A program made the translations under genes and the position numbers. Below the pieces are notes generated by a model. It searched no databases. It saw only the letters and a program-made list of their open reading frames with translations, and had not been told where the DNA came from. 41,385 bases of DNA from an uncultured Methylococcaceae bacterium (lineage in GTDB: Bacteria > Pseudomonadota > Gammaproteobacteria > Methylococcales > Methylococcaceae): the NCBI GenBank assembly GCA_903911305.1, contig CAIWDB010000226.1:1-41385 (forward strand). The letters are read 5' to 3'. Positions 10,225 to 41,260 of the stretch are shown here, piece by piece (the first letter of the stretch is position 1; the number at the start of each line of letters is the position of its first letter).

Positions 10225-11457
10225 CTATGATATGTTTGCTGGTCTAAATTTGCAGTCAGTAGGGCAGGGTTTGATCCATTCAAACCGATGCTGGTGGGCT
10301 AACCGATGCATAATTGCTGTAAAAATTTTAGCGGAGTGTATCGGGGATTTGACGTCGGCTTTAAATTCCGCAATAGCTTGGTAAATTAAGTTTGCTGGAT
10401 AGTGAATTGCAAACAATTCGTAGAGACGCTGCTTTTCAGGATACCACCCCACAACATTACCTATATCCTTCCCAATCAGGGAAACTATCTCTTTGGAGTT
10501 AGCGGGTGGGGAGCGTTTGAGTTTAGGGAAATGCTTCTGAGCATTCGATTTTGAAAGAGCCTGCAATTTCCTCGCGACAAGCTTCCAATCGCTGCCGTCC
10601 ACAGTCTTTTCCACTCTAAGATCAAGCATCCCAGTGGATATTGCTTTGCCGTTGATTTCGCGAACGGCCCGGTCGAGTATGCGTTTGCGCCCCGCAGGAT
10701 AACGGTATTCAAGCTCTTTGTCTATCTGAATGTCTTCGAAAAGCCCTTTGCTCGTTCTCTCGTAATGAGTTTTGTCTGCGAGAATGATGTCTAGCCGGGC
10801 GTAGAGCACGGCTGCCAGTTCCCCTTTGATAGCTAGAATAACTTCAATATTGGTGGGTTTAGTGCGGTTGGCTTTTAGGTTGCTGAGGATGACTTCGCTA
10901 AAACGAATTGCGTGCATCGACTGGAAACGGTCGCTTATTTTATCGCGGTCTTCCAAAGCAACATAGGAAAAACGGTCTAGGATGTTTACATGGTCGAGCA
11001 AGTCGACTTTTTTACCTTCGGCGTTAATGAAGGAATACCTCCAAGTAAACATAGTCGCTCGAAGGGTTTGAATCTCACGGTAGATATCTTCTGCCGTCTT
11101 TTTACCCGCCCATTTGATGCCCAATTCGTCTGCGATTTCGCGAACAGAGAATACCACGACATCGTCGTCCCTAGTGCGTGCCTCCCAAAGTTTCACTAAT
11201 ACTAAGTATACTTTCCTAGTCTTAGTCGTCGGTGTCTTTCCCCCATAAATGGGTTCGATGAGTAAGTAAGAGGCTGCTTTACGACCCCCATCAATTTCAG
11301 TTGCCCACATTTTTTTTCTGGGTTCTCTGATTCGTTTGGAATGTGATGGGGCGAAGATAAAGTCTGCATGCTTTTCAATATTCAGTTCAGGCCGAATAAT
11401 TGCTCGGACTTGATCGATAGCCGTTTCGTCTTTGATGGCAGGGCTATTCTCTGCCAT
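10225..11457 (-). CDS. Plasmid-type replication initiator protein
   Basis: This 410-residue protein probably binds the adjacent iterons and opens the origin. It resembles the replication initiator protein A class of proteobacterial plasmids: an N-terminal segment (KKMWATEIDGGRKAASYL, then KTRKVYLVLVKLWEAR) leads into a winged-helix part at about residues 110-270 (FSVREIADELGIKW; LFEDIQIDKELEYRYPAGRK). A second, less clear domain follows. The assignment rests on this resemblance and on context: iterons lie directly downstream, parB overlaps its start by 14 bases, and parA precedes parB. All three read the same way and probably form one operon. The exact family is uncertain. Confidence 0.75.
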   Translation of the reverse strand: MAENSPAIKDETAIDQVRAIIRPELNIEKHADFIFAPSHSKRIREPRKKMWATEIDGGRKAASYLLIEPIYGGKTPTTKTRKVYLVLVKLWEARTRDDDVVVFSVREIADELGIKWAGKKTAEDIYREIQTLRATMFTWRYSFINAEGKKVDLLDHVNILDRFSYVALEDRDKISDRFQSMHAIRFSEVILSNLKANRTKPTNIEVILAIKGELAAVLYARLDIILADKTHYERTSKGLFEDIQIDKELEYRYPAGRKRILDRAVREINGKAISTGMLDLRVEKTVDGSDWKLVARKLQALSKSNAQKHFPKLKRSPPANSKEIVSLIGKDIGNVVGWYPEKQRLYELFAIHYPANLIYQAIAEFKADVKSPIHSAKIFTAIMHRLAHQHRFEWIKPCPTDCKFRPANIS

Positions 11458-12433
11458 CTGATTTTACCTCATCCGCCGTTAACTCAATTAGTCTGTCCCG
11501 AAGCGTGGAAAAATCATTAGCCATAGTGCCGGGCCATTCAAGCTTATATTGAATATTTTCGAGCAGTGACTTTAATTCAACGGCAACTTGCCACAAGCGT
11601 TCCTCGGGCGGATACAAATTTCCAATTTGCTGATTGATCTTGTCGTGAAGGGAGATAATCTCGCTAGCGTCTGTGGTGTTGGCAAATATATCCGCCCTTT
11701 GAAGCAAGTTGAGCCGATAAGAGAACAATTTCCCTGCTGACAGCGTCTGTTTGACTAAGTGGGGTGGTTCTCGGACTTGAGTTTTTTCCTTTTTCGCCTG
11801 CCGGGCTGCGCGCACGGTCGCATTGCCAAATTTAACGGAATCCCACAGTCTTAGCTGTTCGCTATGGTTTTCGTGCCGGGCGATTTCCATCAACAGTGAT
11901 TTTGATACTTTGCTATTCGACGTCGAATATTCCCTTTTGATCTGGTCGGGCAGTTTGTTCAAGTTCAGGATATTGCTAATGGTCGCCTGCGCCTTTCCGA
12001 CCACTTTCCCAAGCGCCTCTTGGGTATACTGGTAGCGATCCATTAGCTTCGCCAGTGCCTCCGCTTCCTCAATAGGGTTAAGGTCTTCGCGTTGAAGATT
12101 CTCAATAATTGCTAGTTCGTCAATATTGCCGCTAGTCAGGACGATTCCCAATATCTTAGTTCTACCGAGAAGTTGGTGAGCGCGAAAGCGCCGTTCCCCC
12201 GCGACGAGTATGTAGCGGTCTTGATCGTCTTCTTTTCGTTTTACTGTGACGGGCTGCAATAAACCGTGCTGTTCGATTGATTCGGCTAATTCACGAAGAC
12301 TTTGCTCGTCAAAGGTCTTCCTTGGTTGGGCGGGGTTTGGGAGGATATTGAAAATGTCGATATCCTTGATCTTAGGCGTGTTCGGTGAGACGTTCCCGAA
12401 CAGGTTTGCCGCGAGTTGAGGTTTCTGTTCCAT
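11444..12433 (-). CDS. parB: ParB-family partition protein
   Basis: This is the DNA-binding CTPase of a ParABS partition system (329 residues). The ParB/Srx N-terminal domain is at about residues 25-115, with LRELAESIEQHGLLQPVTV and the GERRFRAHQLLG box. An HTH domain follows (YTQEALGKVVGKAQATISNILNLNKLP) and then a C-terminal dimerisation region. I place the start at ATG 12433; a TTG immediately upstream is also possible. It lies 12 bases after parA. A 16-bp palindrome matching two others near parA lies within this gene at 11914-11929. Confidence 0.92.
   Translation of the reverse strand: MEQKPQLAANLFGNVSPNTPKIKDIDIFNILPNPAQPRKTFDEQSLRELAESIEQHGLLQPVTVKRKEDDQDRYILVAGERRFRAHQLLGRTKILGIVLTSGNIDELAIIENLQREDLNPIEEAEALAKLMDRYQYTQEALGKVVGKAQATISNILNLNKLPDQIKREYSTSNSKVSKSLLMEIARHENHSEQLRLWDSVKFGNATVRAARQAKKEKTQVREPPHLVKQTLSAGKLFSYRLNLLQRADIFANTTDASEIISLHDKINQQIGNLYPPEERLWQVAVELKSLLENIQYKLEWPGTMANDFSTLRDRLIELTADEVKSDGRE
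11914..11929. promoter_or_regulatory. Putative parS site (inside parB)
   Basis: TATTCGACGTCGAATA is a perfect 16-bp palindrome. It matches the two other sites (13291-13306 and 13622-13637) at all but the two central bases. Its placement in a partition module suggests a ParB binding site. Confidence 0.65.
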
Positions 12434-12445
12434 CAATGTCGATGA

Positions 12446-13219
12446 TTAGGGTACGTTAATAAGTGCTTCCGCTACCTGATGGTACGAAAGGACGCTTGCG
12501 CTGCCAGGTGTGATGGCGACGGTAGGGATGCCGAGTGAGGTTGCCTTATCAAACACAGTGCTTCGGTTGACAGGATCGAAAATAGTCACTGACTGTCCTG
12601 AAAGCGCGCTTTTCACACCATTCAAGATTTGATTGTCGTGTAGATTACGCGGATTGTACTGGGTCGGAAGGATGCCCAGTACCCTAAGTGTTGGGTTAAG
12701 ATCAGCCTGGATTTGCTCAATGGTCTGGAATAGTCTGGCAACACCATGAAAAGAAAGGTTATCTGTCTTAACCGGGACGAGAACCAAGTCGGCGGCAACC
12801 AGCGCATTGATGGTCAGAAGCCCTAGGGAAGGTGGGCAGTCTATAAGGATATAATCATAATGGTCGCGGATCCCTTTTAGCTTATCGCGTAAAACTTTTT
12901 GCGAACTTAGCATTATTTTCACCAGCAACTCTGGCTCCGCATTGGCAAGAGATATGCTGGCTGGTATGAGTGCAGGGTTTTCCCCGAGTATCAGAGATTC
13001 CATCGGCTTGTCGCCGATCAGCGCGGCGTACATTGTGGAATTCGAGTCTTCAAGTTCGTCTGGGCTGAAGCCAAAGTAAATGGTGAGGCTACCTTGTGGA
13101 TCACAATCCACAGCAAGTGCGCGCTTGCCCTTTTGCGCGAGCGCATAGGCAAGATTTATCGTTGAAGTGGTTTTTCCAACCCCCCCTTTTTGGTTTGCCA
13201 ATGCTACAACTTTGCTCAT
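12446..13219 (-). CDS. parA: ParA-family partition ATPase
   Basis: This 257-residue protein is the ATPase that drives segregation of the replicon. It has the deviant Walker A motif KGGVGKTT at residues 11-18, the DCDPQGS motif, and DYILIDCPPSLGLLTINAL as Walker B region. It is short and has no N-terminal HTH, so it is of the chromosomal/type Ib-like form. The ATG at 13219 has AAGGA upstream at good spacing. It is first in the parA-parB-rep unit, with a putative parS 72 bases upstream of its start, which suggests autoregulation through ParB. Confidence 0.95.
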   Translation of the reverse strand: MSKVVALANQKGGVGKTTSTINLAYALAQKGKRALAVDCDPQGSLTIYFGFSPDELEDSNSTMYAALIGDKPMESLILGENPALIPASISLANAEPELLVKIMLSSQKVLRDKLKGIRDHYDYILIDCPPSLGLLTINALVAADLVLVPVKTDNLSFHGVARLFQTIEQIQADLNPTLRVLGILPTQYNPRNLHDNQILNGVKSALSGQSVTIFDPVNRSTVFDKATSLGIPTVAITPGSASVLSYHQVAEALINVP

Positions 13220-19374: not shown

Positions 19375-20499
19375 CTAGCCGCCTCTATGCCGATGCAGTG
19401 CAAGCAGTTCAAAGTTTTCCGGGGAGCGCTTATGGCGAGCGACGAATTGCCGAACTTTGCCTAGCAATGCCGTGGCCTCGGGTTTTTCCAAGGACAGCCC
19501 CAACTCCGCAAACACGCTCATGACGGCACTAGAGCCAGAATGCTTGCCAAGAATGAATTGATGTTTGCGCCCCACCACGGCGGGGTCAACGCCTTGGTAG
19601 TTGGCTAAATCTTTCAGCATCCCATCCACATGGATGCCAGCCTCGTGACTAAACACCCGCTTGCCGACTAAGCTTTTGCGCCACCCCAAAGGTTCGCCCG
19701 ATGCCGATTCGACTCGGGCTGACAGTTCAGGAAATTCGCGAAGATCGACCCCGGTTTCAATTCCGTATAATTGGCGCAAGCCCACCACGACTTCTTCCAG
19801 TGCGGCATTGCCGGCCCTTTCGCCCAAGCCATTGACGGTGGTGTTCAGATGTGTGGCGCCTGCCAAAGCCGCCGCCAAGGTGTTGGCAGTGGCAAGGCCA
19901 AGGTCGTCATGGGCATGCATTTCGATATCCAAATCGGTGGCGGCACGCAAGGATTTAATCGTTTCCAACACCCCAAAGGGTTCCATTACGCCCACGGTAT
20001 CGGCGAAACGGATGCGCTCTGCCCCGGCTGCTTGGGCAGTTTCTGCGATGTGTAGTAGAAAATTGCGGTCGGCCCTTGATGCGTCTTCCATTCCTACGCA
20101 GACCGATAAGCCGCCATCGCGGGCCTGTTTTACACAGGCTTTGATTGTCTCTAAAGCCCATTTTTCGTCACGCTGCAATTTTTGTTTGATTTGCTGGCTG
20201 GACACTGGAATCGATAAATCCGCAAACCCAATCCCTAAATTCAAGCATTCATGTATGTCGTCATGGCGCATCCTCGACCAGACTAACATTCTCGCGTTTA
20301 GGCCAAGCCCTGCGAGAATGCGGATTTCCTCGCGTTCCCGAACGCCCATGGCAGGAATGCCGATTTCCAATTCGGCCACGCCGAGACCGTCTAAGCGAGT
20401 GGCTATGTCGATTTTTTCCTCAAGGGAAAAGGCCACGCCTGCCGATTGCTCGCCGTCGCGAAGAGTGGTGTCGTCTATTGTCACGGTGCGAGGGTTCAT
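19375..20499 (-). CDS. nifV: NifV homocitrate synthase
   Basis: NifV condenses acetyl-CoA and 2-oxoglutarate to homocitrate, the organic ligand of FeMo-co. The 374-residue protein has the HMGL/isopropylmalate synthase TIM barrel: TLRDGEQSAGVAF at the N-terminus, the EMHAHDDLGLATAN metal-binding motif, GLGERAGNAALEEVV, and KSLVGKRVFSHEAGIHVDGM toward the end. The length matches NifV rather than longer LeuA. The ATG at 20499 has GAGAG upstream. It is the first gene of the minus-strand nif operon ending in clpX. Confidence 0.95.
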   Translation of the reverse strand: MNPRTVTIDDTTLRDGEQSAGVAFSLEEKIDIATRLDGLGVAELEIGIPAMGVREREEIRILAGLGLNARMLVWSRMRHDDIHECLNLGIGFADLSIPVSSQQIKQKLQRDEKWALETIKACVKQARDGGLSVCVGMEDASRADRNFLLHIAETAQAAGAERIRFADTVGVMEPFGVLETIKSLRAATDLDIEMHAHDDLGLATANTLAAALAGATHLNTTVNGLGERAGNAALEEVVVGLRQLYGIETGVDLREFPELSARVESASGEPLGWRKSLVGKRVFSHEAGIHVDGMLKDLANYQGVDPAVVGRKHQFILGKHSGSSAVMSVFAELGLSLEKPEATALLGKVRQFVARHKRSPENFELLALHRHRGG

Positions 20500-20729: not shown

Positions 20730-20745
20730 AGCAACCACTGTGCCA
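20730..20745 (-). promoter_or_regulatory. Sigma-54 promoter of the nifV operon
   Basis: On the minus strand TGGCACAGTGGTTGCT matches the sigma-54 consensus at every conserved position. It is about 230 bases upstream of the nifV ATG. Confidence 0.82.
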
Positions 20746-20833: not shown

Positions 20834-20849
20834 TGTAAGCTTTGTGACA
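20834..20849 (-). promoter_or_regulatory. NifA upstream activator site of the nifV operon
   Basis: TGTAAGCTTTGTGACA fits TGT-N10-ACA exactly. Its centre is about 120 bases upstream of the predicted transcription start. Confidence 0.7.
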
Positions 20850-24000: not shown

Positions 24001-25900
24001 AAAAAAACAATTCAAAAAAGCCTTTGCCAAGCTTAAGCAATATGGACATGCCGAAAACGTAGAGTATGACTTGGTAGGCAAGCAGGGCATTACCCGGCAT
24101 GTCAGCTTTAGCGGCAGCGTCATCAAGGATGCCGATGGACAATTCCTAGCGACGCGTTCGGTGTTATATGACATTTCCGAATTGAAGAAAGTCAAAAACA
24201 TGCTAGAACAATTATCTTACGAACAGCAAGCGATGCTGGATAACGAATTGATCGGCATTGTAAAAGTGATTAACCGTCGCATTATTTGGAAAAACAAGGC
24301 GTTGGATCGCATCTTTGGTTACGGGCCAACAGAACTGAAAAACAAGTTGACTAGAACCTTATACTTAGACGATTCGACTTACCAATCAGTGGGCGAAGCT
24401 GCTTATCCGGTTTTGGAAGCCCACGGCGTTTACCGGACGCAATTGAAGATGAAGCGGAAGGATGGAAAGAAAATCTGGATCGATTTAAGTGGGGTGCAAT
24501 TGTGTGGTGGTCGTAACGAGTCACTATGGTCTTTAGGGGAAATTACGGAAATCAAGGAATATCAATATAAAATTGAAGAAATTGCCTTCCATGATGCCTT
24601 AACCGGATTGCCAAATCGCTTGCTGACAGCCGACCGGCTAGGCCAGGCACTGGCCCAGGCGAATCGCACCAGCGGGATGTTGGCTGTGTGCTACCTCGAC
24701 TTGGACGGCTTTAAGCCAGTCAACGACACTTACAGTCATGCCGCCGGGGACAAGCTATTGATCGAGATTGCCCACCGGCTGAAATCCAGTATTCGGGCCA
24801 ACGATACGGCAGGCCGTCTAGGCGGGGACGAGTTTGTATTGTTGCTAACCGATTTGGATAGTGCCGAGGAATATCAAACCATACTTCATCGGGTTGCTGA
24901 AGCCATCAAACAACCTGTGATGATTGACGAAACTCACCAGGCCATGGTCACCGCCAGTATTGGCGTTGCGTTGTTTCCACAAGATGCCACCGACGCGGAC
25001 ACTCTGCTGCGCCACGCCGACCAGGCTATGTATGTCGCCAAGCAGTTGGGCCGGGACCGTTGCTTCCTCTTTGATGCGGATCAAGATGCTGCGTTGAAAG
25101 CCGGGCTAGAAAATCTGGCGAGTATCCGTCGTGCCTTGGATCGGCAAGAGTTCGTGCTACATTTCCAGCCCAAGGTTAACATGAAAACCAAGACGGTCAT
25201 TGGCGTTGAGGCGCTGATCCGATGGCAACATCCCGAGCGGGGCTTGTTGAAGCCGGCCGATTTCCTCCCCTTCGTCAAAAGCCATCCGCTTTGCATCGAA
25301 TTGGGCGACTGGGTGCTTGACACGGTATTCGATCAAATGGCCGAATGGCACGGGCAAGGGTTTGACATTCCGGTGAGTGTGAATGTCGATGCCTACCATT
25401 TACAATGTGAAGGTTTCGCGCTGCAAATGCAAGAACGCATTGCCACCCATCCGAGCATACCACCCAACCACATTGAGCTTGAAGTGTTGGAAACTTATGC
25501 GTTGAACGATTTGGTCGATGCCTCCAAAATCATGCATGCCTGCCGCAAAATCGGTGTTAATTTTGTCTTGGACGACTTTGGCACCGGCTATTCATCGCTT
25601 ACCTATTTAAAGCACCTTCCCCTGACGATGTTGAAAATCGACCAAACTTTCATACACGATATGCTGAACAACCCGGAAGACCTTTCCATTGTTGAGGGCG
25701 TGATCGGGTTGGCGCGAGCCTTCCACCACCAAGTGATTGCAGAGGGCGTGGAAACGGCAGGGCAAGGCGAATTGCTGTTGACGTTGGGTTGCGATCTTGC
25801 GCAGGGTTACGCCATTGCCGAACCTATGCCCGGTGAGAAAATGCAGAGATGGGTGAACAACTGGCAAAAATCGCGGCATGAACCGTCTGGAGGGGCATAG
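21035..25900 (+). CDS. REC-PAS(x8)-GGDEF-EAL c-di-GMP signalling protein
   Basis: This 1621-residue cytosolic protein likely makes and/or degrades c-di-GMP in response to phosphorylation and several sensed signals. An N-terminal receiver domain (residues 12-130) has acceptor Asp68 and Lys119. About eight PAS/PAC units follow between residues 150 and 1210, several ending in DITERKQA-type linkers. The GGDEF site is intact (1263-1267) and is preceded at the right distance by an RxxD inhibitory motif (RAND). The EAL domain is also intact (EAL at 1392-1394; DDFGTGYSSLTYL; AEGVET). No membrane segment is seen. Two phytochrome-like kinases follow in the same direction. The stop codon lies in a MITE-like repeat. 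Confidence 0.92.
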   Translation: MPEQSASKNDPLKVLIVDDSPEDREVMRRLLLTGSKRSYQFIESDNGKDGLRACLHNGEKPPDCILLDFHLPDYDAPEFLLALGGSESPRCPVVVVTGLSGGLDGTAILRLGAQDFIGKGWMNSESLTRSVENAIERFAMNRSLRKKEHMLSESQRIAHIGSWIYALDGSITWSEESYTLWGVSPDTFTPNAESFENLIHVEDRPAMQAWITACLAGENPDELVIRRILPDGSLQYLCGRGELKRDAEGKPVHMAGTVQDITERKQAQLTLKDSEERLRLALDAAQMGIFDWDIVHNHITWSPRHQYLWGFGTGDFTPRYDDFASRVHPEDLPLVENEMARCRTERVPYTCEYRVIWPDGSLHWVNGRGEFAYDENGQPLRMRGTVVETTELKQKEEALREHEIIRELYHRLNHIASRVPGVIYQYKLRPDDSSCFPYASEAIRDIYRVKPEDVQEDASVVFGILHPDDYDGIVASIQQSAATLQIWKYEYRVRFTDGTVRWLAGNAIPNPEKEPDGSVIWHGFITDITDIKQAEQSLRESEKKFSKIFQGSPIGIAISSAADGKFIDANAAFLDIYGYEREEIIGHSSVELGLWDNLQHREAIIKRVLNQGFASNIEVKYHRKSDNISRVLLASMETIDVAGEPCMMGFVIDITDRKRAHEYLQESERKFRLSSQRLAQLIWGTNVGTWEWTIPTGDVQFNERWAEMLGYTLAELEPVSLDTWIKLAHPDDLQRSTELLERCFSREIDTYELEARMRHKNGDWVWVLDRGRVVEWSVDGQPLRMSGAHQDITERKQAEMAIAESSNLLQTIISTAPIRVFWKDQNLRYLGCNINFAKDAGMTHPNDVIGKDDFQLAWVEQAELYRADDRLVIESGIPKLSYDEPQTTPKGETIWLRTSKVPLRHPEGEIFGMLGIYEDITRRKELEIQLIVSKAEIEDLYDHAPCAYHSLGPDGTYQRINATELAWLGCSREEVIGKLKPSDFFTPAGKKQFKKAFAKLKQYGHAENVEYDLVGKQGITRHVSFSGSVIKDADGQFLATRSVLYDISELKKVKNMLEQLSYEQQAMLDNELIGIVKVINRRIIWKNKALDRIFGYGPTELKNKLTRTLYLDDSTYQSVGEAAYPVLEAHGVYRTQLKMKRKDGKKIWIDLSGVQLCGGRNESLWSLGEITEIKEYQYKIEEIAFHDALTGLPNRLLTADRLGQALAQANRTSGMLAVCYLDLDGFKPVNDTYSHAAGDKLLIEIAHRLKSSIRANDTAGRLGGDEFVLLLTDLDSAEEYQTILHRVAEAIKQPVMIDETHQAMVTASIGVALFPQDATDADTLLRHADQAMYVAKQLGRDRCFLFDADQDAALKAGLENLASIRRALDRQEFVLHFQPKVNMKTKTVIGVEALIRWQHPERGLLKPADFLPFVKSHPLCIELGDWVLDTVFDQMAEWHGQGFDIPVSVNVDAYHLQCEGFALQMQERIATHPSIPPNHIELEVLETYALNDLVDASKIMHACRKIGVNFVLDDFGTGYSSLTYLKHLPLTMLKIDQTFIHDMLNNPEDLSIVEGVIGLARAFHHQVIAEGVETAGQGELLLTLGCDLAQGYAIAEPMPGEKMQRWVNNWQKSRHEPSGGA

Positions 25901-26029: not shown

Positions 26030-26087
26030 GGGAGTGCAAGGCTTGCCTTGCCTGTACGCGCACTTGCAAGGCAAGCCTTGCACTCCC
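26030..26087. repeat. Perfect 22-bp inverted repeat
   Basis: The arm at 26030-26051 begins GGGAGTGCAAGGCTTGCC. Its exact complement lies at 26066-26087, with a 14-base loop. It lies in the gap before the first phytochrome gene. It could end upstream transcription or be a REP-type repeat. Confidence 0.75.
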
Positions 26088-26165
26088 TCATCACTTTTAA
26101 TCCCACCCGAAACATTATGCTTACGCTTAATCTCAGTTAACCTATACGAATTTAGTGATCTACTC

Positions 26166-28439
26166 ATGAACTCACCACAAAACCCGGTTTCTAGCGATAC
26201 AGTAATTGACCATCAAACTTCCACAGTATTCATGATGAATTTCACAAATTGCGACCGGGAACAGGTGCAATTTCTGGGGGCGATCATGCCGCATGGTGTG
26301 CTGCTAGTCTTGAGCCTTCACCCATTTAGTATTCTAGGTGTCAGTGCAAATGCCCATTCTTGGTTAGGCGTTGACGTGGATAGCCTGTTGAATGGGCATT
26401 TGGGGCAGATTGTTGCAGCGGATGTCAGGCAGACTTTGGAGGACGGCTTAGCCAGTCTGACCGAGCCGTTTCACCCGAAATACTTCGGTTGCTTTCAAAC
26501 CTTGCAAAACATTCATCGCTTCGATGTGTTTGCCCATCGGTCCGGTGATGTCATCCTGCTTGAGTTTGAAGCTATTCCACCCGGTGTTTCGGATCGCTCG
26601 GCAACGGAACGATTTGCAGATGTGAGTGAATGCATCGCCGCGTTGCAATCTGCCGAAACATGGCAGGAGGGAATGTCCATCGCGGTTCGCGAATTGAAAC
26701 GGCTGAGCGGCTTTGATTCCGTTATTGGGGTTCGCTTTCTAGCCGATGGTTCGTTTCACGCCATGGCCGAAGCCTGCGAAGAACATTTCGCGTCTTTTCT
26801 CGACAAGCGCTTCCCCCGGTCGGACATTCCAGAGCCTGGACGCAAGCAGATGATATTGATGCCGCTGCAATATGGGCCAGACCTCACCCATGAACCCGTG
26901 CCACTGGTCATGGCAGAGCAACAGCTTAAACCTTTGAAGATTGACCTTGGCCTCTCGGTTTTGCGCAGCATATCACGCATGTGCAACCGCTTTTATCTGA
27001 ATATGGGTGTGCATTCAAGGTTGGTGTTGTCGCTGGTGGACCGTGGCGAGTTGTGGGGCTTTTTCAATTGTAAGAATGCCACCCCGCGTTACGTGGCTTA
27101 CTCAGATCGGCTTGCTTTCCAATCGTTTGCCAAAATGGCAGCCATGTTGTTGGTTGAAAAGGAAAAATCAGAACAGGATAAGTGCTTGCTGGAGTCCATG
27201 CGCAACATCACCGAAATTGCCGCCGAACTCTCCTCAATCGAGGCGTTCCCAACAGCTTTTCGCAATCTGCCCGCACGGTCGCTGGAGAAATTCGACATCG
27301 GCGGGTCCGCATTATGTAATGGTCAACACATCATCAGCGCAGGTGTCACTCCCGACAACGACATGATCAAAGCCTTGCTTCCGTGGCTGGATGGTCAGGT
27401 CGAATTGTTCGTGACGGACCGATTATTAGCACTATTCGAGCCAGCAGCCCAGGATGGCGATAGCGCTACAGGCTTAATTGCCATGCGGCTCATGGAGCCT
27501 AGGCAATATCTGCTGGTTTTCCGCCCTGAATGGGTGCATGAAGTCCATTGGGCGGGTGATCCCCGCAAGCCGGTGGAGATGGATGCCTCCTCTGGCGAAG
27601 AGCGTTTGACAGCGCGTGGATCGTTCGAGGTATGGAAAGAGGATGTGCGGGGTAGGGCGAGACCTTGGCAAGCTCATGAAATCGAGGCGATGGCCGACTT
27701 GCAAAGGGTGGTCATTTTATCGCAACATGCGGATAAGCAGCGGGCCTTACAATCAATGTTGGAAGCCAGCAATGTTGAACTGGAAGACTTTGCCTACATA
27801 GTCTCCCATGACTTGCAAGAACCATTGCGTGGCATTCGCAATTTCACCCAATTTTTGGAAAATGAAGTTGGTGAGCGTTTGGAGCCACAACAACGTGGCT
27901 GGCTTGATACTATCATGAAAATGGGCGTTCGGATGAGTAACCAGATTGACGCCATGCTTCAGTATTCACGCGCAGGACAGTTGAGCCTTGACAGGCAATC
28001 GGTGGATATAAATAAGTTATTACAGGCTATCATAGACGACCTGTCCGTCGGTATTGGCTTAACGGGAACCAAGATTGAAATACTCAAGCATTTGCCTACT
28101 GTGATGTGCGATCCCATTCGCACGGCGGCTGTATTGGAGAATTTAATTGTCAATGCAATCAAATACAACGACAAAGCGGAGAAGCAAGTCGAAATTGGTT
28201 GCCTTGAAGGCATCCCCACGACATTCTTTGTCAGGGACAATGGCATAGGCATTGCCGAGAGGCATCACGAGGCCATTTTCACGATTTTCCGCCGTTTGCA
28301 TGGCCGCACTGAATTTGGCGGCGGCACGGGGGCCGGTTTGACGATTGCGCGCAAGCATATCGAGCGGCAAGGCGGGCGTCTGTGGCTGGAATCCACTGTG
28401 GGCCTTGGGTCAAGCTTTTACTTCACATTGGGTTTTTGA
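26166..28439 (+). CDS. Bacteriophytochrome-like sensor histidine kinase 1
   Basis: This 757-residue protein has the phytochrome layout PAS-GAF-PHY followed by HisKA and HATPase domains. The biliverdin-type cysteine is present (NCDREQVQFLGAIMPHG, Cys29), and the GAF DIP motif is kept (RFPRSDIPEPGR). Two pocket histidines conserved in typical bacteriophytochromes appear to be missing: the usual SPxHxEYL reads SRMCNRFYL and the CHH motif reads CKNATP. The PHY tongue is present (VHWAGDPRKPVEM; GSFEVWKE). The kinase H-box is SHDLQEPLRG (His548), with an intact N-box and DNGIGI and GGGTGAGL boxes. I chose ATG 26166; frames further upstream include the repeat. Confidence 0.88.
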   Translation: MNSPQNPVSSDTVIDHQTSTVFMMNFTNCDREQVQFLGAIMPHGVLLVLSLHPFSILGVSANAHSWLGVDVDSLLNGHLGQIVAADVRQTLEDGLASLTEPFHPKYFGCFQTLQNIHRFDVFAHRSGDVILLEFEAIPPGVSDRSATERFADVSECIAALQSAETWQEGMSIAVRELKRLSGFDSVIGVRFLADGSFHAMAEACEEHFASFLDKRFPRSDIPEPGRKQMILMPLQYGPDLTHEPVPLVMAEQQLKPLKIDLGLSVLRSISRMCNRFYLNMGVHSRLVLSLVDRGELWGFFNCKNATPRYVAYSDRLAFQSFAKMAAMLLVEKEKSEQDKCLLESMRNITEIAAELSSIEAFPTAFRNLPARSLEKFDIGGSALCNGQHIISAGVTPDNDMIKALLPWLDGQVELFVTDRLLALFEPAAQDGDSATGLIAMRLMEPRQYLLVFRPEWVHEVHWAGDPRKPVEMDASSGEERLTARGSFEVWKEDVRGRARPWQAHEIEAMADLQRVVILSQHADKQRALQSMLEASNVELEDFAYIVSHDLQEPLRGIRNFTQFLENEVGERLEPQQRGWLDTIMKMGVRMSNQIDAMLQYSRAGQLSLDRQSVDINKLLQAIIDDLSVGIGLTGTKIEILKHLPTVMCDPIRTAAVLENLIVNAIKYNDKAEKQVEIGCLEGIPTTFFVRDNGIGIAERHHEAIFTIFRRLHGRTEFGGGTGAGLTIARKHIERQGGRLWLESTVGLGSSFYFTLGF

Positions 28440-28441
28440 AA

Positions 28442-30724
28442 ATGAATAGTCAAATGGTGACCGCGACGAATGTCGATATCAGTAATTGTGACCGTGAGCA
28501 AATCCATCTTGTCGGTGCGATACAGCCTCACGGCGCATTATTGGTGCTAACAGAGCCTGACCTACACATCGTACAGGTCAGCGCGAACACCGATAGTTTC
28601 CTCGGATTTCAAGCCGATGCCTTGTTGGGCCAAACGATTGATGTGTTGCTCGGTGCTGCGAACACTGAAATTCTGCTTACAAAACTTGACGGTGCCGATT
28701 TGACCGACATGCTAGAGCATCTGATGATCTTGCCGTGCCTGCCTCACCTTGATGCGCGGTTTCATCTGTTTGGCAATCGCACAGACGGCCTCTTGTTATT
28801 AGAGTTTGAACTTGCCGTTGAAATGACCCAAACGCTGGAGAATGAAGGTTTTTCCCATCTCAGGGACACGATTCATAAACTGCAAAAAACCCCGTCATTA
28901 CGGGTTTTCTTGAATGTAGCCGTTGAAGCGGTGCGTGCCTATACCGGCTTTGAGCGGGTGATGGCCTACCAGTTCGATGCTGAAGGCAGCGGGGAGGTTG
29001 TTGCGGAAGCCAAGGACCCTGATTTGGAAACCTATCTAAGTTTGCATTATCCCGCCAGTGACATCCCTGCCCCGGCCAGGCGTTTGTTTGCCCTCAGCCC
29101 ACTACGGCATCTTCCCAATGTGGATTACATACCCATCCCACTCATATCCAATTCCCAGTCAGGAACCGGCAGTTTGTCTGTGGATCTGAGTTATTCTTTT
29201 TTGCGCAGCGTTTCTTTGATGTATACCGGGTATCTGCGCAATATGGGGGTGAAGGCCACGATGGTGATGCCCTTGCTAAAGGACGGCAAACTTTGGGGGT
29301 TGATCTCTTGTATGAATCATAGTGTGCCTAAATTACTTAGCTATGAAAACCGCACCAAGGTTGAACTGCTTATCCAAATGCTATCCATGCTGATGGGGGA
29401 TAGGGAAAGACTGGATTATTATGCCTATCGCATGAGCCTTAATCTGGCGTTTGAAAAACTGGTTAGTTTGATGGGGCTGGTCGATAATTTCCACAAGGCA
29501 TTGCTCGCAGGGGAAACCAACCTGCTATCGACGATTGATGCCGAGGGATTGGCGCTTATCGCCGACGGGAAATTGACGCTGCTAGGCACAACGCCGACCG
29601 AGGAGCAAGTCGGCCTATTGGCTGACTGGCTCTCGCAGAAAAAAGAAGTGGTGTTTTCCACTCACAGGCTCGTGCATGATTTTCCCGAATCCGAAAGTTT
29701 TTGTTCCGTGGCAAGCGGCTTATTGTCCGTCCGGATTTCCCGTATGGATTCTGAACGTGTCATTTGGTTCCGCCCGGAGGTGCTACGTGATGTGCATTGG
29801 GCGGGTGACCCGAACAAACCAGTGGAAATTAGTCAAATCAATCAAGAGATCAGATTGCAACCGCGTACCTCTTTCGCATTGTGGAAAGAAACCGTCCACG
29901 GCCAATCCCGGCCTTGGCTTGTGTGTGAACTCGATTATGCAAGTCGATTGAGGCGGGCTATCTTGGATGTGATTGTCGAGCGGTCCAAATTGTTGGCGCG
30001 TACCAATGCGGAACTTGAACGCAGCAACCAGGAATTGGATTCCTTCGCGTATGCTACTTCCCACGATTTGAAAGAGCCACTTCGGGGTATTCACAATTTT
30101 GTTGAATTTTTAAAGGAGGAAGAAGGTGGGCAATTGACGGAGCGAGGGCTTCAACGGATCGAAACCATCCTTCGACTCGCTGGCCGTATGGACAATATGC
30201 TGGATTCGCTGCTGCAATATTCTCGGATAGGCAGGAACGAATTGGATTTAAAAACTCAGTCCATCGGGGCTTTGGTGGGGCAGACTGCTGAATTAATCCT
30301 GCAAGTCATGCCTGAGCAAAATGTCAGTATCCAGATTCAGCCCCTTTTGCCGTATATTCGCTGTGACCGGATAAGGGTGGCGATGATTTTTCATAATTTG
30401 ATCATGAATGCCATCAAGTATAACGACAGGGTCGAGAAAAAGATTGAAATTGGCTGTGATGCATCCATTAACCCGCCGGTTTTTTTCGTGCGCGATAACG
30501 GGATTGGGATTGTGCAAAACCAGCACGAACTTATTTTCCATCTGTTTCGCCGACTGCATGGGCGCAACGAATATGGGGGCGGCGCAGGCGCGGGTCTGGC
30601 CATAGTCAAACAGGCGGTTCATAAGCACGGTGGACGTATTTGGCTGGAGTCACAGATTGGTATGGGATCAACATTTTATTTTACACTGACGACTATGCGG
30701 GATGCCGACAGGGAGTACAGATAA
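28442..30724 (+). CDS. Bacteriophytochrome-like sensor histidine kinase 2
   Basis: This paralogue of the preceding gene starts two bases after its stop (760 residues). The biliverdin-type cysteine is Cys16 (NCDREQIHLVGAIQPHGALL). The GAF domain has the more canonical LHYPASDIPAPARRL. The histidine in SPxHxEYL is Tyr here (SLMYTGYLRNMG), and the CHH region reads CMNHSVP. The PHY domain includes VHWAGDPNKPVEI and TSFALWKETVHG. The kinase core has SHDLKEPLRG (His541), NLIMNAIKYND, DNGIGI and GGGAGAGLAI. There is no receiver domain. Light sensing is expected for the family, but the altered pocket leaves chromophore use open. Confidence 0.9.
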   Translation: MNSQMVTATNVDISNCDREQIHLVGAIQPHGALLVLTEPDLHIVQVSANTDSFLGFQADALLGQTIDVLLGAANTEILLTKLDGADLTDMLEHLMILPCLPHLDARFHLFGNRTDGLLLLEFELAVEMTQTLENEGFSHLRDTIHKLQKTPSLRVFLNVAVEAVRAYTGFERVMAYQFDAEGSGEVVAEAKDPDLETYLSLHYPASDIPAPARRLFALSPLRHLPNVDYIPIPLISNSQSGTGSLSVDLSYSFLRSVSLMYTGYLRNMGVKATMVMPLLKDGKLWGLISCMNHSVPKLLSYENRTKVELLIQMLSMLMGDRERLDYYAYRMSLNLAFEKLVSLMGLVDNFHKALLAGETNLLSTIDAEGLALIADGKLTLLGTTPTEEQVGLLADWLSQKKEVVFSTHRLVHDFPESESFCSVASGLLSVRISRMDSERVIWFRPEVLRDVHWAGDPNKPVEISQINQEIRLQPRTSFALWKETVHGQSRPWLVCELDYASRLRRAILDVIVERSKLLARTNAELERSNQELDSFAYATSHDLKEPLRGIHNFVEFLKEEEGGQLTERGLQRIETILRLAGRMDNMLDSLLQYSRIGRNELDLKTQSIGALVGQTAELILQVMPEQNVSIQIQPLLPYIRCDRIRVAMIFHNLIMNAIKYNDRVEKKIEIGCDASINPPVFFVRDNGIGIVQNQHELIFHLFRRLHGRNEYGGGAGAGLAIVKQAVHKHGGRIWLESQIGMGSTFYFTLTTMRDADREYR

Positions 30725-32078: not shown

Positions 32079-32094
32079 TGTCGTCTTTCCGACA
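32079..32094 (+). promoter_or_regulatory. NifA upstream activator site of the ferredoxin-nifQ operon
   Basis: TGTCGTCTTTCCGACA fits TGT-N10-ACA exactly and is centred about 108 bases upstream of the predicted start of transcription. Confidence 0.7.
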
Positions 32095-32169
32095 ATCCCT
32101 CCGACTGCCTTTGTTGGGCTTGCTACAGCTTCAAAGCGCATAAATTCTTAAAATTCATAATGTTATATC

Positions 32170-32185
32170 TGGCACGGCGAGTGCT
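32170..32185 (+). promoter_or_regulatory. Sigma-54 promoter of the ferredoxin-nifQ operon
   Basis: TGGCACGGCGAGTGCT has the GG-N10-GC spacing and one mismatch to the consensus. It lies about 50 bases upstream of the first gene. Confidence 0.78.
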
Positions 32186-32235
32186 TTATCTCTGTTGAAA
32201 AATCCTTTTGGACGACTAAGCAGGAGAAAGTGCCA

Positions 32236-32514
32236 ATGGCTTTGAAAATCATCGAATCCTGTGTCAATTGCTGGGCTTGCCTTCCGCTGTGCCCTAGCGA
32301 GGCCATCTACGAGGCCAAGCCGCATTTTCTGATCGACCCAAAAAAATGCACCGAATGTGAGGGTGCGCACGCCGATCCCCAATGCGCCACCATTTGTCCC
32401 ATTGAGGGGGCTATTCTCGACGCGTTGGGAGAACCCATCAACCCGCCGGGATCTTTGACCGGCATCCCGCCAGAGCGAATGGAACAAGCCATGGCGGAAC
32501 TGAGAGCACATTAG
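32236..32514 (+). CDS. Nif-associated 2[4Fe-4S] ferredoxin (FdxN/FdxB type)
   Basis: This 92-residue ferredoxin likely carries electrons for nitrogenase or for NifB-dependent cofactor synthesis. It has two cluster motifs: CVNCWACLPLCP (CxxCxxCxxxCP) and CTECEGAHADPQCATICP, the second with the CxxC-x8-CxxxC insertion typical of Alvin-type nif ferredoxins. ATG 32236 has AGGAG upstream; an in-frame GTG at 32230 is less likely. It is the first gene of the operon and is followed two bases later by the NifO-like gene. Confidence 0.9.
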   Translation: MALKIIESCVNCWACLPLCPSEAIYEAKPHFLIDPKKCTECEGAHADPQCATICPIEGAILDALGEPINPPGSLTGIPPERMEQAMAELRAH

Positions 32515-32516
32515 TC

Positions 32517-32965
32517 ATGGCCATCATTGAATTTTATGAAAAGCCCGGCTGCGTCAACAATGCCAGGCAGAAAAAACTGTTACAGGATGCGGGTCACGAA
32601 GTCATCGAACGCAATTTGATGGCTGAGCCTTGGGATACCGAAACCCTCAAGCGCTTCTTCGGGGATTCGCCGATCACCGAGTGGTTCAATCCCAGTGCCA
32701 AAGCGATGAAACTGGGCTTGATCTTCCCGGAATGCCTGACCGAAAGCCAAGCCTTGCGCTTGCTGGCAGCCGACCCGGCATTGATCCGCCGACCGTTGCT
32801 AAAAGTGGGCGAACGCCATGAAATGGGTTTCGATCCCGAACTCATCAAGGCGTGGATTGGTCTGGATGCAAAGGGTGCGACCCGGCAGGAATTGGAGACC
32901 TGCCATAAGGAAGGCATCAACTCACCAAGGTCGGCTGAAGCCGACCCTACAGGTGAATTGCATCC

Positions 32966-32969
<4 letters not shown>
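32517..32969 (+). CDS. nifO: NifO-like nitrogenase-associated protein (ArsC/Spx fold)
   Basis: This 150-residue protein has the thioredoxin-like ArsC/Spx fold of nitrogenase-associated proteins such as Azotobacter NifO: IIEFYEKPGCVNNARQKKLL, then RFFGDSPITEWFNPSAKAMK and RRPLLKVGERHEMGFDPE. A single Cys (CVNN) replaces a CxxC pair, as in the family. NifO is reported to affect molybdenum/nitrate metabolism in Azotobacter. The last 12-13 residues (RSAEADPTGELHP) are encoded by a palindromic repeat at 32929-32946. The stop overlaps the flavodiiron gene (ATGA). Confidence 0.82.
32929..32946. repeat. Palindrome in the NifO-like C-terminus
   Basis: GGTCGGCT, GA, AGCCGACC form a perfect 8-bp hairpin inside the coding sequence, just before the stop. 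Confidence 0.65.
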
Positions 32970-34562
<1,593 letters not shown>

Positions 34563-34579
34563 TTAAGAGGTAAATCATC

Positions 34580-34927
34580 ATGGCATTAGTCACTTTTAGC
34601 AGTCCCGAATATAAAGATAAAACCGTTTACGCAGTGGCCGGTAGCCACACCCAAACCTTATTAAAACTAGCCTTGGAAAACAAAGTTCCAATCCAATTTG
34701 AATGTAAGGACGGGGAATGTGGCACCTGCTTGGTCAAGGTCAGCAGTGTGGATAACAAACCGAGGATGAGCGGCCACCTGACCGCCAAGGAAATTACCGT
34801 ACTCAAACAACTAGGCAAAATCACCCAGAAGGAAATTGACGAGATTGCCGTCACTGACATGCCGGCCACTTGGCGCTTGGCGTGTCAGTTCATTGTCCGC
34901 GATGAAGATATTTTGGTCGAGTACTGA
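34580..34927 (+). CDS. Shethna FeSII-like [2Fe-2S] protein
   Basis: This 115-residue ferredoxin resembles the Azotobacter FeSII (Shethna) protein, which locks nitrogenase in an inactive, oxygen-protected complex. It shares an FSSP start, PIQFECKDGECGTCLVKV, a loop region with SGHLTAKEITVLKQLGK, and the closing MPATWRLACQFIVRDED with LVEY. The inserted loop between the third and fourth Cys is the feature that separates FeSII from ordinary ferredoxins. The gene lies 17 bases after the other ferredoxin and has GAGG upstream. Confidence 0.88.
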   Translation: MALVTFSSPEYKDKTVYAVAGSHTQTLLKLALENKVPIQFECKDGECGTCLVKVSSVDNKPRMSGHLTAKEITVLKQLGKITQKEIDEIAVTDMPATWRLACQFIVRDEDILVEY

Positions 34928-34964
34928 TTCTAATGCCAATGTGGGGGTGGATTGAGCAGCCGAA

Positions 34965-34982
34965 GGGCGAATTAATTAGCCC
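34965..34982. repeat. Small intergenic hairpin before nifQ
   Basis: GGGCGAATTAATTAGCCC is an imperfect palindrome in the 95-base gap between the FeSII-like gene and nifQ. It may be a short repeat or lower downstream expression. Confidence 0.4.
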
Positions 34983-35022
34983 CTACAGATTCTTAGTTGA
35001 TTAATGTATGGAATAAAACTTC

Positions 35023-35607
35023 ATGAACGCCATCCCCAAGTCCGCCGCCCCGGGCCGCGAACAGTATCATCGGTACTTCAAGCGTCATTTGACCAAACTT
35101 TCGCCCAATTCGGAATGGGTTTGTCAGATGTTGGCAAGTTGGAGTGTCGGCTTGGGGTCCTTGCCTGATGGCTTAGGCTTGGAGGCAACAGAATTTCATG
35201 GGCTGGTCAATGATTATTATCATACGCTGGTGATGCCAGCCCAAGCGCCTTCGGGTAAAACGGCTGATTTTAGCCGCATGTTGGAAAAGGATGATCTGAC
35301 CCGCTATCTGCTCGCCCGTGCCGCCTTCCCAGAGCGGCTGGAAACCGCTTGGATCGCCTCGATACTGGTGGCAGGATGTTTGGGGGAAGACCATCTTTGG
35401 CAAGACTTGGGGCTATGGTCGAGACAGGATTTAAGCGGCCTAATTGCTTATAACTTCCCGGAAATTGCCGCCACAAACATCCACGATATGAAGTGGAAAA
35501 AGTTTCTGTACAAGCAATTATGCGAAGCGGAGGGCATTTATGTGTGTCGAGCGCCTTCTTGCGCCGTTTGTGTTGATTATTCACGTTGTTTTGGATCGGA
35601 GGAATAA
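35023..35607 (+). CDS. nifQ: NifQ, molybdenum donor for FeMo-co synthesis
   Basis: NifQ is an iron-sulfur molybdoprotein that passes molybdenum to NifEN/NifH. The 194-residue protein has the diagnostic C-terminal cluster motif C-x4-C-x2-C-x5-C, seen as CRAPSCAVCVDYSRC. The body contains LARAAFPERLETAWIASILVAGCLGEDHLWQDLGL, typical of the family (quoted in part: HLWQDLGL). The stop overlaps the next ATG by one base, so it is coupled to the SIR2-like gene. Confidence 0.94.
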   Translation: MNAIPKSAAPGREQYHRYFKRHLTKLSPNSEWVCQMLASWSVGLGSLPDGLGLEATEFHGLVNDYYHTLVMPAQAPSGKTADFSRMLEKDDLTRYLLARAAFPERLETAWIASILVAGCLGEDHLWQDLGLWSRQDLSGLIAYNFPEIAATNIHDMKWKKFLYKQLCEAEGIYVCRAPSCAVCVDYSRCFGSEE

Positions 35608-36470
35608 TGAGTAAAATTGATGACATCTTAGCCGGTTTGTACGAAAACCGAATTGTTCCTTATCTAGGTCCTGGGGTGTTGGCCGATGTGACCCAATTGG
35701 AGACGGGCGCACCCATGCCCGCCGATAGCGACAGCCTGATTATCGCCATGAACGACGGTAGGCCAATGGCCCCGAAGCTAATGTACGAATTTCCACGCGC
35801 CGCGATGAATTTGGAACTCAAGCGGGGGCGTAGCTTCGTTGAGCGTTTTTTGGAGAAGACCTACGGTCAAACCCGCTGGACACGTGCGGCCCTGCATGAT
35901 TGGCTGGCAAGCTGGAAACCCAGCTATGTCATCGACATCAACCGCGACACTCAGTTGCAAGAAACCTATGCCGGCCAGCCGCATACCTTGATACGTGGCA
36001 TCGCTCGAATTGCCGGGACGGATTTCCGTTTCACCATCCATCAATTTGAAGATGGCGTTTATCGGGAAATCCGCCAAGAAGAGTCCGATCCCAATTTGCC
36101 GATATTATTTAAGCCTATGGGCAGTCCGCTGCCTTCGCCTAAATTCATCGCATCGGATGCCGATTATGTCGATTACATTAGCGAGCTGATGGGTGGGTTT
36201 GCGATCCCTTCCTTCTTGAAGGAATATCGTCAAGGCAAGCAATACCTATTGATTGGTTTGCCGCTAAACCGGGATTCCGAGCGCATGGTCATGTCCGATA
36301 TTGTTTATAGTGCCGCCGAACCCAAAGGTTGGGTACTGAACAAGTCCCCCACGAATAAGGAAAAGAAATACTGTGCTAAGATAGGCTTGGAAATTCTCGA
36401 CATCGGCGTGGAGGATTTACTGACTGCGGCGGGTTGGATGGGTAGCGTTGACGAGAAGGCAGTGGCTTAG
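35607..36470 (+). CDS. SIR2-like domain protein in nif operon
   Basis: This 287-residue protein resembles SIR2-like NAD-binding proteins. It has an N-terminal nucleotide-binding turn (RIVPYLGPGVL), a middle region with LPILFKPMGSPLPSP and DADYVDYISELMG as in the K-hGS-p and dY elements of the family, and QYLLIGLPLNRDSERM near the end, like the l-fiGysl-D motif. The ATG at 35607 overlaps the nifQ stop and has GGAGGAATA upstream. It is therefore co-translated with nifQ. NAD hydrolysis or sensing is possible, but catalytic residues cannot be confirmed from the sequence. The role in nitrogen fixation is unknown. Confidence 0.7.
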   Translation: MSKIDDILAGLYENRIVPYLGPGVLADVTQLETGAPMPADSDSLIIAMNDGRPMAPKLMYEFPRAAMNLELKRGRSFVERFLEKTYGQTRWTRAALHDWLASWKPSYVIDINRDTQLQETYAGQPHTLIRGIARIAGTDFRFTIHQFEDGVYREIRQEESDPNLPILFKPMGSPLPSPKFIASDADYVDYISELMGGFAIPSFLKEYRQGKQYLLIGLPLNRDSERMVMSDIVYSAAEPKGWVLNKSPTNKEKKYCAKIGLEILDIGVEDLLTAAGWMGSVDEKAVA

Positions 36471-36678: not shown

Positions 36679-36709
36679 GGGGAGGGAACTTAGAGCTTAA
36701 TTCAACAGC
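36679..36709 (+). repeat. Repeat shared with selB insertion
   Basis: GGGGAGGGAAC, then TAGAGCTTAATTCAACAGC, recurs almost exactly at 39727-39759 inside selB. Confidence 0.75.
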
Positions 36710-39272: not shown

Positions 39273-41260
39273 TTATTGGAACCGCCGGACACATCGACCA
39301 CGGCAAAACCGCTTTGGTCAAAGCGCTAACCGGAGTGGATGCTGACCGCTTGGCCGAAGAAAAGGCCCGTGGCATCACTATCGACCTAGGCTATGCCTAT
39401 ATGCCACTCCTCAATGGTGAAATCCTCGGTTTTGTCGATGTACCCGGTCATGAAAAATTTATCCACAACATGCTGGCGGGCGTGACCGGCATAGACTTTG
39501 CCCTGCTTGTCGTTGCCGCCGATGATGGCATCATGCCGCAGACTTTGGAACATCTGCAAATCATTAAGCTTCTTGGCATCCGTCGCGGGGCTGTGGCTTT
39601 GACCAAGAGCGATCTTGTCAGTCAAGACCGCATTGCTCAAGTCAGTGCGGACATCCGTGCATTGTTCGGTGGAACTGGTAGCGAAGCCTTTGATTTAACT
39701 CGCCCCCACCCTAACCCTCCCCCGTCGGGGGAGGGAACCGTAGAGCTTAATTCAACAGCACCGGAACTCGCCAATTGCCCCATCTTTCCCGTTTCCGCCA
39801 TCACCGGAAACGGAATCAGGGAATTATGGGCCTATTTGGAAAAAGCCAGCACGGTTAATGGCACAAAGCCAAACCATGGCCATTTTCGTCTCGCCGTAGA
39901 TCGCTGCTTCACGGTCGCCGGCGCGGGGACCGTCGTGACAGGCACGGTGTTCTCCGGGCGGGTTGCCATTGGGGACAAACTAATGGTTTCCCCTTCGGGC
40001 CGGGAGGTGCGGATTAGAAGCATCCATGCACAAAACCAAGCATCCGAAACCGGCATGGCAGGGCAACGCTGCGCACTTAATCTCGCCCATATGGAAAAGC
40101 AGGATATTCATCGTGGCGATTGGATTCTTAACCCTACATTGCATCTGCCAACTCATCGTTTGGATGTCCGAATCAAACTGCTAGCCAGCGAGACCAAACC
40201 CTTGCGGCACTGGACCCCCATAAGTTTTCATCTGGGTGCTTTCCGTGCCAGTGGACGTATTGCGTTATTGCGGGACGAACCCTTGGAACCCGGCGACAGC
40301 ACCTTGGCACAATTGGTATTGGACAAACCCACATGCGCAGTCAATGGTGATCGCTGCATCCTCCGCGATACCTCGGCGCAAAGAACCTTGGCCGGCGGCA
40401 TCGTGTTAGATACTCAGCCGCCGATGCGTGGTCGCCGCACAGCACGTCGATTGGCAATTTTGTCAGCTTGGGAACAGTCCGACCCGCAAACCAAACTTCA
40501 AACTTTGCTTGCGGTCTCGCCCGACGGGGTTGATCTCAAAAGTTTTGCCGTGAATGCCAATTTGAATAGCGTCAATCTGGAAGGGCTTTGCCAAAACTTG
40601 ATCCTACGACGTTTTGAGGGCGGGAAACTAATCGCGTTTGCGCCCGAACATTGGACACAACTCAGCATGGCTGTCGTCGAGACACTTCGGCGAGAACATG
40701 AAAAAGTGCCCGATTCCTTGGGGCTTAATGCTGAACAATTGCGCTTGCGGGTCGCCCCCCGGTTGGCACGGGCGATTTTTACCCAAGTGCTGACGGAAAC
40801 CTTGAGCCTTGGGCAATGTGCCAAGGATGGTTCTTGGTGGCATCTGCCGGGGCATAAAATCATCCTGACAGAACAAGATGAAAAACTATGGCATCGAATC
40901 TCTCCCTTGTTGCTAGCCTCGCCTTTCCAACCGCCGCGTGTGCGCGATATTGCCCGTATCGAATCCCTGGATGAAGCGGTCGTGCGTAAATTATTGATCC
41001 AAGTCGCCCGGATGGGTCAAGTTTACCGGATTGCCCACGATCATTACTTCGACCGGGCTGCGGTCGCCCAACTAGCCGACGCATTCCGCTCGCTCGCTCA
41101 GGCATCCTCCGACGGCTTAGTGACTGCCGCCAAGTTTCGTGACCAGATAGGCACGGGCCGCAAACTAGCCGTTCACATCCTTGAATTTTTTGATCGGATA
41201 GGCTTCACTCGACGCTTGGGTGACTTGCATCGACTGCGTGAAGATTCACTTCAGTTCTGA
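39269..41260 (+). CDS. selB: SelB, selenocysteine-specific elongation factor
   Basis: SelB carries Sec-tRNA to UGA codons next to a SECIS hairpin. The 663-residue protein has G1 [25 protein letters not shown] and SAITGNG in the GTPase domain, EF-Tu-like domains 2-3 after about residue 210, and C-terminal winged-helix domains (about 430-660). The start is GTG 39269. At about residues 149-164 the sequence [17 protein letters not shown] interrupts the GTPase domain. It is encoded by an intergenic-type repeat (39705-39759) inserted in frame between G4 and G5, which explains part of the extra length over typical SelB. Confidence 0.95.
39705..39759 (+). repeat. Palindromic repeat inserted in frame in selB
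   Basis: CCCTCCCCCG and CGGGGGAGGG form a hairpin, followed by TAGAGCTTAATTCAACAGC. The right part repeats the intergenic copy at 36679-36709. The reading frame of selB is kept. Confidence 0.75.

Follow-up and report, generated by a model that had tools for sequence, protein, structure and literature searches.

A SIR2-like protein, very probably of the PnfA family, with a degenerate catalytic site in a Methylococcaceae nif operon

Described nif-linked relatives

It has been reported that pnfA (PST1325) of Pseudomonas stutzeri A1501 is transcribed divergently from nifH and activated by NifA and sigma54, and that its homologues, which form two subfamilies (close and distant, about 20% identical), are confined to diazotrophs, Klebsiella pneumoniae being described as a species without the gene (PMC2820453). 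At 0.5% O2, the nitrogenase activity of a non-polar pnfA mutant was down to 23%, while nifH transcription did not change significantly; complementation restored activity (data not shown in that paper). Nitrate-supported fixation was lost in the mutant, which grew on nitrogen-free semisolid medium (data also not shown there); in plain anaerobiosis it was similar to the wild type, whose own activity was much lower under this condition (PMC2820453). Part of PnfA was likened in the same paper to UspA and ETF-like proteins. The term SIR2 is absent from its text, and a broken catalytic site is therefore not discussed there. PST_1325 has since been annotated as SIR2 family (PMC11332353), PST1325 was upregulated about ninefold when the island was expressed in E. 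coli (PMC6053447), and the pnfA result has been repeated in a review (PMC5923616).

Similar genes have been described in other diazotrophs. For example, the SIR2-family protein Rcc03262 of Rhodobacter capsulatus, which is encoded in the operon nifB1-rcc03265-nifZT-rcc03262, was detected in the wild type and not in a nifA1-nifA2 double mutant (PMC6925177). ZMO1821, a gene of the nif island of Zymomonas mobilis, was upregulated under N2 fixation and predicted to encode a deacetylase, and the same study reports that NifA, NifH and NifK are acetylated (PMC8600466). As a SIR2-family gene of a nif cluster, ZMO1821 resembles the gene studied here in description (PMC8600466, PMC8594446). SIR2-like nif genes were also listed in PMC8594446 and PMC9412634. 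The gene family is already in print; in the available text of the open-licence literature we found no link between PnfA and a catalytically degenerate SIR2 domain, and no description of a broken SIR2 site in PnfA or of a PnfA partner, which is weak evidence of absence.

The Methylococcaceae locus

We analyzed a 41,385-nucleotide stretch (the window) from an uncultured Methylococcaceae bacterium (contig CAIWDB010000226.1, assembly GCA_903911305.1). The gene of interest (35607–36470, + strand) encodes a protein of 287 aa, which we assigned from its open reading frame, predicted fold and family comparison to the nif-linked SIR2-like proteins of PnfA type (type I, see below); its closest named relatives were found in methanotrophs of the Methylococcaceae. 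It is preceded by nifQ (35023–35607, + strand; Pfam NifQ, E 1.9e-49), and the A of its ATG at 35607 is also the last base of the nifQ TAA (35605–35607). A ribosome binding site, GGAGGA (35598–35603, + strand), was read from the sequence within the 3′ end of nifQ. The first-pass annotation had proposed both the overlap and a strong ribosome binding site, and each was borne out, with a single shared base.

The SIR2-like gene is the last of a seven-gene run on the + strand (32230–36470). The run opens with a 4Fe-4S ferredoxin gene (32230–32514; Fer4, E 1.7e-5), followed by genes for an ArsC-like nitrogenase-associated protein (32517–32969; TIGR01616, 142.6 bits against a cut-off of 109) and a flavodiiron protein of the flavorubredoxin type (32966–34258; ODP, E 2.1e-25, and flavodoxin, E 2.4e-13), two 2Fe-2S ferredoxin-like genes (34275–34562, Fer2, E 4.4e-15; 34580–34927, Fer2, E 3.9e-10), and nifQ. 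Motif scans placed two sites of the NifA upstream activator type, TGT-N10-ACA (32079–32094 and 32112–32127, + strand), and a sigma54 −24/−12 promoter-like site with one mismatch, TGGCACGGCGAGTGCT (32170–32185, + strand), directly 5′ of the first gene. This arrangement agrees with the earlier suggestion of a NifA-type operon. Over the whole window neither pattern was enriched (29 TGT-N10-ACA sites versus 28.6 expected, and 11 −24/−12 sites versus 8.0), so the support comes from the arrangement of the sites and not from their number. Elsewhere in the window, a perfect −24/−12 site (20730–20745, − strand) and a TGT-N10-ACA site at 20834 lie 5′ of a homocitrate-synthase-like gene (19375–20499, − strand) that was recognized by eye.

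Predicted SIR2 fold and catalytic site

The window protein matched PF13289 (SIR2_2) only weakly, with E 4.4e-4 and 20.8 bits, which is below the curated cut-off of 24.5 bits; this cut-off was passed by all ten family members scanned (38.2–75.7 bits). When the family was compared by profile with four canonical SIR2 proteins encoded in the window's genome and elsewhere in its order, the match had E 1.1e-14. A search of PDB sequences with the family profile recovered ThsA and KomC (five sequences with E between 8e-4 and 6e-3, two more at 0.5–0.6); the protein alone gave a single unrelated weak match there, and no PADLOC or NCBIfam model matched it. The structure model built from a diverse alignment had a pLDDT of 92.5 and a pTM of 0.91 (an earlier model built with 32 close relatives had reached a pLDDT of 74). 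Its best match among solved structures was chain E of the KomBC complex (Z 18.6, rmsd 3.4, 239 residues), followed by ThsA (Z 18.3) and DSR2 (Z 17.9), also over 239 residues each. At the level of the predicted structure, it was thus confirmed that the protein is one complete SIR2 domain over nearly its full length, as the first-pass annotation had supposed.

Phage-defense SIR2 NADases such as ThsA, DSR2, KomC and AVAST5 act in defense, most of them with further domains or partners. The window protein has their domain fold over nearly its whole length, and the best solved structural matches were such NADases, as would be expected of a phage-defense gene riding in the nif region. However, it consists of a single domain whose active site is broken, and no PADLOC model matches it, whereas in the alignments the His and Asn motifs are preserved in KomC and ThsA. 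The NifA-type promoters, the co-occurrence with nifD described below and the nitrogenase phenotype of the presumed orthologue also argue against a defense role, which we consider extremely improbable. Sirtuin deacetylases (SIRT3 and archaeal Sir2) have the same core fold but match the model less closely, at Z about 12, and the window protein differs from them in lacking the catalytic His.

The Asn of the TTNYD motif of SIR2 proteins is catalytic, as known from work on ThsA and DSR2. A catalytic role of the His of K-x-H-G can be seen from deposited structures in which it was altered: in KomC(H146N), the residue changed relative to KomC is the His of KFHG, and PDB entry titles name DSR2 H171A as the protein in NAD+ complexes. 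In the window protein, the counterpart of TTNYD is YVIDINRDT (residues 107–115; 35925–35951, + strand), in which Asn112 is kept and the first Thr is replaced by Asp110, and the counterpart of K-x-H-G is KPMG (residues 169–172; 36111–36122, + strand), in which the catalytic His is replaced by Met171. The profile alignment likewise paired N112 with the Asn of TTNYD and M171 with the His of KLHG. A Rossmann/SIR2 core was present in the prediction, as had been anticipated, and an intact catalytic pair was not.

We found the same pattern throughout the family. Among 42 rows of the wider family, the Asn/His pair read N/M in 26, N/L in 3, W/H in 7, W/L in 4, W/Y in 1 and W/W in 1; in the close set (the window protein and 79 relatives, excluding the truncated L068) it read N/M in 65 and N/L in 15, so that the His position was Met or Leu in all 80. 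No intact pair was present in either set (0 of 42 and 0 of 80; 13 rows are common to both sets, and L008 and L086 are identical in sequence). In a quick tree, the nif-linked proteins fell on one side of a branch with an SH-aLRT of 99, although control branches were long and the root was assumed, and they formed two groups: type I (29 rows, SH-aLRT 99) and type II (13 rows, 90), members of the latter being 20–26% identical to the window protein. All 29 type I rows have the Asn and all 13 type II rows have Trp in its place, while the His was kept in 7 of the 42 rows, all of them type II (7 of 13) and all lacking the Asn.

The controls behaved differently. GAG-S, TTNYD and KLHGD were all present in four canonical SIR2 proteins of the window's genome and order (L141, L144, L145 and L146), and of 17 non-nif SIR2 loci of the order, 11 had TTN[YFW]D, each with HG 35–44 residues downstream; the exact motif was missing in the other six (L142, L143, L173, L175, L176 and L177). 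By comparison, it occurred in 0 of 17 nif-linked loci. Judged by these residues, the NAD-cleaving site is broken across the family rows examined, and catalysis by the window protein is probably absent. An unusual activity relying on other residues may exist, since the Asn survives in type I proteins and a His in 7 of the 13 type II proteins.

An active NAD-dependent enzyme, either a deacetylase or a NADase that deacetylates or otherwise modifies nitrogenase or NifA, would fit the SIR2 fold as well as the upregulation and predicted function of ZMO1821 and the acetylation of NifA, NifH and NifK (PMC8600466). However, with Met or Leu in place of the His in all 80 close rows, and with no row of the 42 combining the two catalytic residues, this is quite unlikely, and the deacetylase label of ZMO1821 rests on the family name, with no activity given in the available passages of PMC8600466. 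The same losses speak against NAD cleavage and against covalent modification of a nitrogenase component, and so against this part of the first-pass annotation, which had proposed that the protein may adjust NAD state or modify such a component.

Some remnants of a nucleotide site were retained: G21 and G217 were conserved in 42 of 42 rows and D114 in 41 of 42. Such remnants would suit a sensor that binds NAD(H) or ADP-ribose, leaves it uncut, and makes the activity or assembly of nitrogenase depend on the redox or energy state. A link to respiration would also fit the pnfA mutant, whose defect was seen with O2 or nitrate and not in plain anaerobiosis (PMC2820453), but this dependence on conditions may merely reflect low activity, as the wild type is much less active in plain anaerobiosis (PMC2820453). 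In addition, the GAG loop had another residue in place of its third glycine in 8 of 42 rows, and only 1 of 42 retained the loop serine. We regard a sensor as possible, with odds well below even. A broader and similarly tentative idea is that a defense-type fold was domesticated in the proteobacterial nif regulon and lost its catalytic pair by two routes (the His in type I and the Asn in type II), and that it may now read NAD(H) or ADP-ribose and thereby couple nitrogenase to respiration.

Gene order, distribution and proposed role

Among 80 close-relative loci, the SIR2-like gene was divergent from nifH within 1.5 kb in 50, on the same strand behind nifQ in 7 and near another labelled gene (nif, rnf, Fe-S or glutaredoxin) in 11; in the remaining 12, several of them on short contigs, the available stretch contained none of the labelled queries, which numbered 44 and included three SIR2-like ones. 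A −24/−12 match was present 46–65 bp before the ATG in 49 of the 50 nifH-divergent loci (0.56% in shuffled sequences) and an upstream activator site between −185 and −120 in 41 of 50 (1.6% in shuffled sequences). The promoter criterion had been tightened after inspection of the relatives' loci and the shuffles preserved base composition only; moreover, the 50 loci are related and therefore are not independent observations.

PnfA (PST1325) resembles these relatives in being diazotroph-specific, in having both close and distant subfamily members, in being controlled by NifA and sigma54 and, like 50 of the 80, divergent from nifH. We conclude that the gene in the window very probably belongs to the PnfA family, based on the position, orientation and promoter of most of its relatives, on size and on the later SIR2 annotation. 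The gene in the window differs in that its neighbor is nifQ and it is not divergent from nifH: it closes a nifQ operon, whereas PST1325 neighbors nifH. Divergence from nifH is a matter of where PST1325 lies and does not define the family by sequence. Similarly, the NifA and −24/−12 sites of PnfA type, recognized here as sequence motifs, are at the operon level in the window, whereas 49 of 50 nifH-divergent relatives have their own promoter. In the seven relatives with nifQ directly upstream, the genes are separated by 30–179 nt, versus the one-base overlap in the window; the overlap is particular to the window genome, and adjacency to nifQ is local. In four of these seven (L002, L003, L006 and L008), the space between nifQ and the SIR2-like gene is filled by an open frame of 49–60 aa with a hydrophobic stretch, overlapping the start of the latter by 1–8 bases, and the window has no such frame.

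On symbiotic plasmids of rhizobia (Rhizobium etli p42d, R. jaguaris and Sinorhizobium fredii), type II genes were found behind nifB-fdxN-nifZ-nifT, and on the plasmid of Methylococcus sp. EFPC2 they lie downstream of nifA, nifB, nifZ and nifT. The gene order around Rcc03262 is similar, and Rcc03262 would be expected to be type II from its gene order. In eight nif clusters (L083, L120, L121, L123–L126 and L128), the type II gene has a gene for a DegT-type aminotransferase on its upstream side, within about 650 bp. A suspected fusion in L114, a 590-aa open frame, proved to be an overlapping frame, the other long frame there being aminotransferase-like with a DegT match. A Geobacteraceae-binned contig (L056) carries a 70% identical methanotroph-type gene adjoining nifH and is possibly a misplaced contig.

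We examined the distribution of the gene in three samples, the order Methylococcales (201 genomes), the class Gammaproteobacteria (321) and the phylum Pseudomonadota (398), some genomes being in several samples and E limits varying between searches. In the order, 106 genomes had both the SIR2-like gene and nifD, 1 the SIR2-like gene only, 3 nifD only and 91 neither (103, 4, 2 and 92 if nifD was counted solely above the family cut-off); this co-occurrence with nif, whose absence the first-pass annotation had named as a refutation, supports a functional link of the gene to nitrogenase, as does the mutant phenotype of the presumed orthologue PnfA (PMC2820453). The corresponding numbers were 25, 2, 4 and 290 in the class and 15, 2, 26 and 355 in the phylum. 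NifQ was found in four of the five genomes with the SIR2-like gene only (G087, G279, G577 and G757), which are therefore probably nif genomes with nifD unassembled or below the limit. G363 was rejected as a genome with the gene but without nif, its protein being a canonical SIR2 with TTNYD and KMHG. With the exceptions resolved in these two ways, occurrence in diazotrophs only holds within the order, class and phylum samples. The converse does not: among the 41 genomes with nifD in the phylum sample, 26 were without the gene at the sensitivity used, and it was also missing from nifD-bearing G083 and G075, which belong to the window's genus and family, respectively.

Three genomes (G148, G156 and G166) lacked nifD above the cut-off and had a fragmentary or interrupted SIR2-like match. 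Three stops interrupt the nifD-model match of G148, and that of G166 covers a 3′ portion that also contains a stop; in G156 it was an intact frame scoring 313 bits, which resembles the NifE-like matches that come second in other genomes. This is suggestive of decay of the SIR2-like gene along with loss of intact nifD. The reading of all three as remnants of both genes was rejected because the match in G156 is an intact NifE-like frame.

The one-base overlap with nifQ could suggest that the protein works specifically with NifQ or NifB in making FeMo-cofactor, as could the position of the gene after nifB-fdxN-nifZ-nifT on the three plasmids from rhizobia and its presence in the nifB regions of several further genomes. 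However, far more close relatives adjoin nifH than follow nifQ (50 versus 7 of 80), and NifQ was found whether the SIR2-like gene was present (41 of 42 genomes tested) or absent (30 of 32 nif genomes). Since NifQ occurs in 71 of the 74 genomes tested, it was rejected as a partner that would set the distribution of the gene. These figures do not support a special tie to NifQ, and we find such a partnership rather doubtful.

The SIR2-like protein is probably a non-cutting nitrogenase helper, given its incomplete cutting site and its near-exclusive travel with nitrogen-fixation genes. In our proposal, a single SIR2-fold domain with a broken NAD-cleaving site would have been recruited into the NifA/sigma54 regulon, and the resulting PnfA-family protein would be co-produced with nitrogenase and act post-transcriptionally for full nitrogenase activity. 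Its most likely action would be to bind a nitrogenase component or maturation factor through its strongly conserved surface, with neither NAD cutting nor deacetylation; we infer this mode of action, the target and the functional equivalence of the gene in the window to PnfA. To the reading as a whole, a PnfA-type, NifA-controlled and catalytically degenerate SIR2 protein that helps nitrogenase post-transcriptionally by binding and not by NAD cutting, we assign a probability of about 0.62. The presumed orthologue PnfA was needed for about three quarters of the nitrogenase activity of P. stutzeri at 0.5% O2 (PMC2820453), and a SIR2 fold with a broken site would replace the published guesses (UspA/ETF-like, PMC2820453; deacetylase, PMC8600466) with a testable one, a binding protein. 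Because 25 of the 29 genomes with nifD in the class sample have it, the SIR2-like gene is a candidate for a missing part in the transfer of nitrogenase to new hosts.

Several other features of the window were observed. Two phytochrome-like sensor kinases, recognized by eye, lie side by side and are flanked by nif genes (26034–30724). Genes resembling parA, parB and a replication protein, also identified by eye from translations, are located close to nif genes (10225–13219), which suggests that the DNA may be plasmid-derived. Besides, an in-frame stretch of selB (39700–39770) partly matches a repeat-like element at 36679–36709, and similar short repeats are present near 25900.
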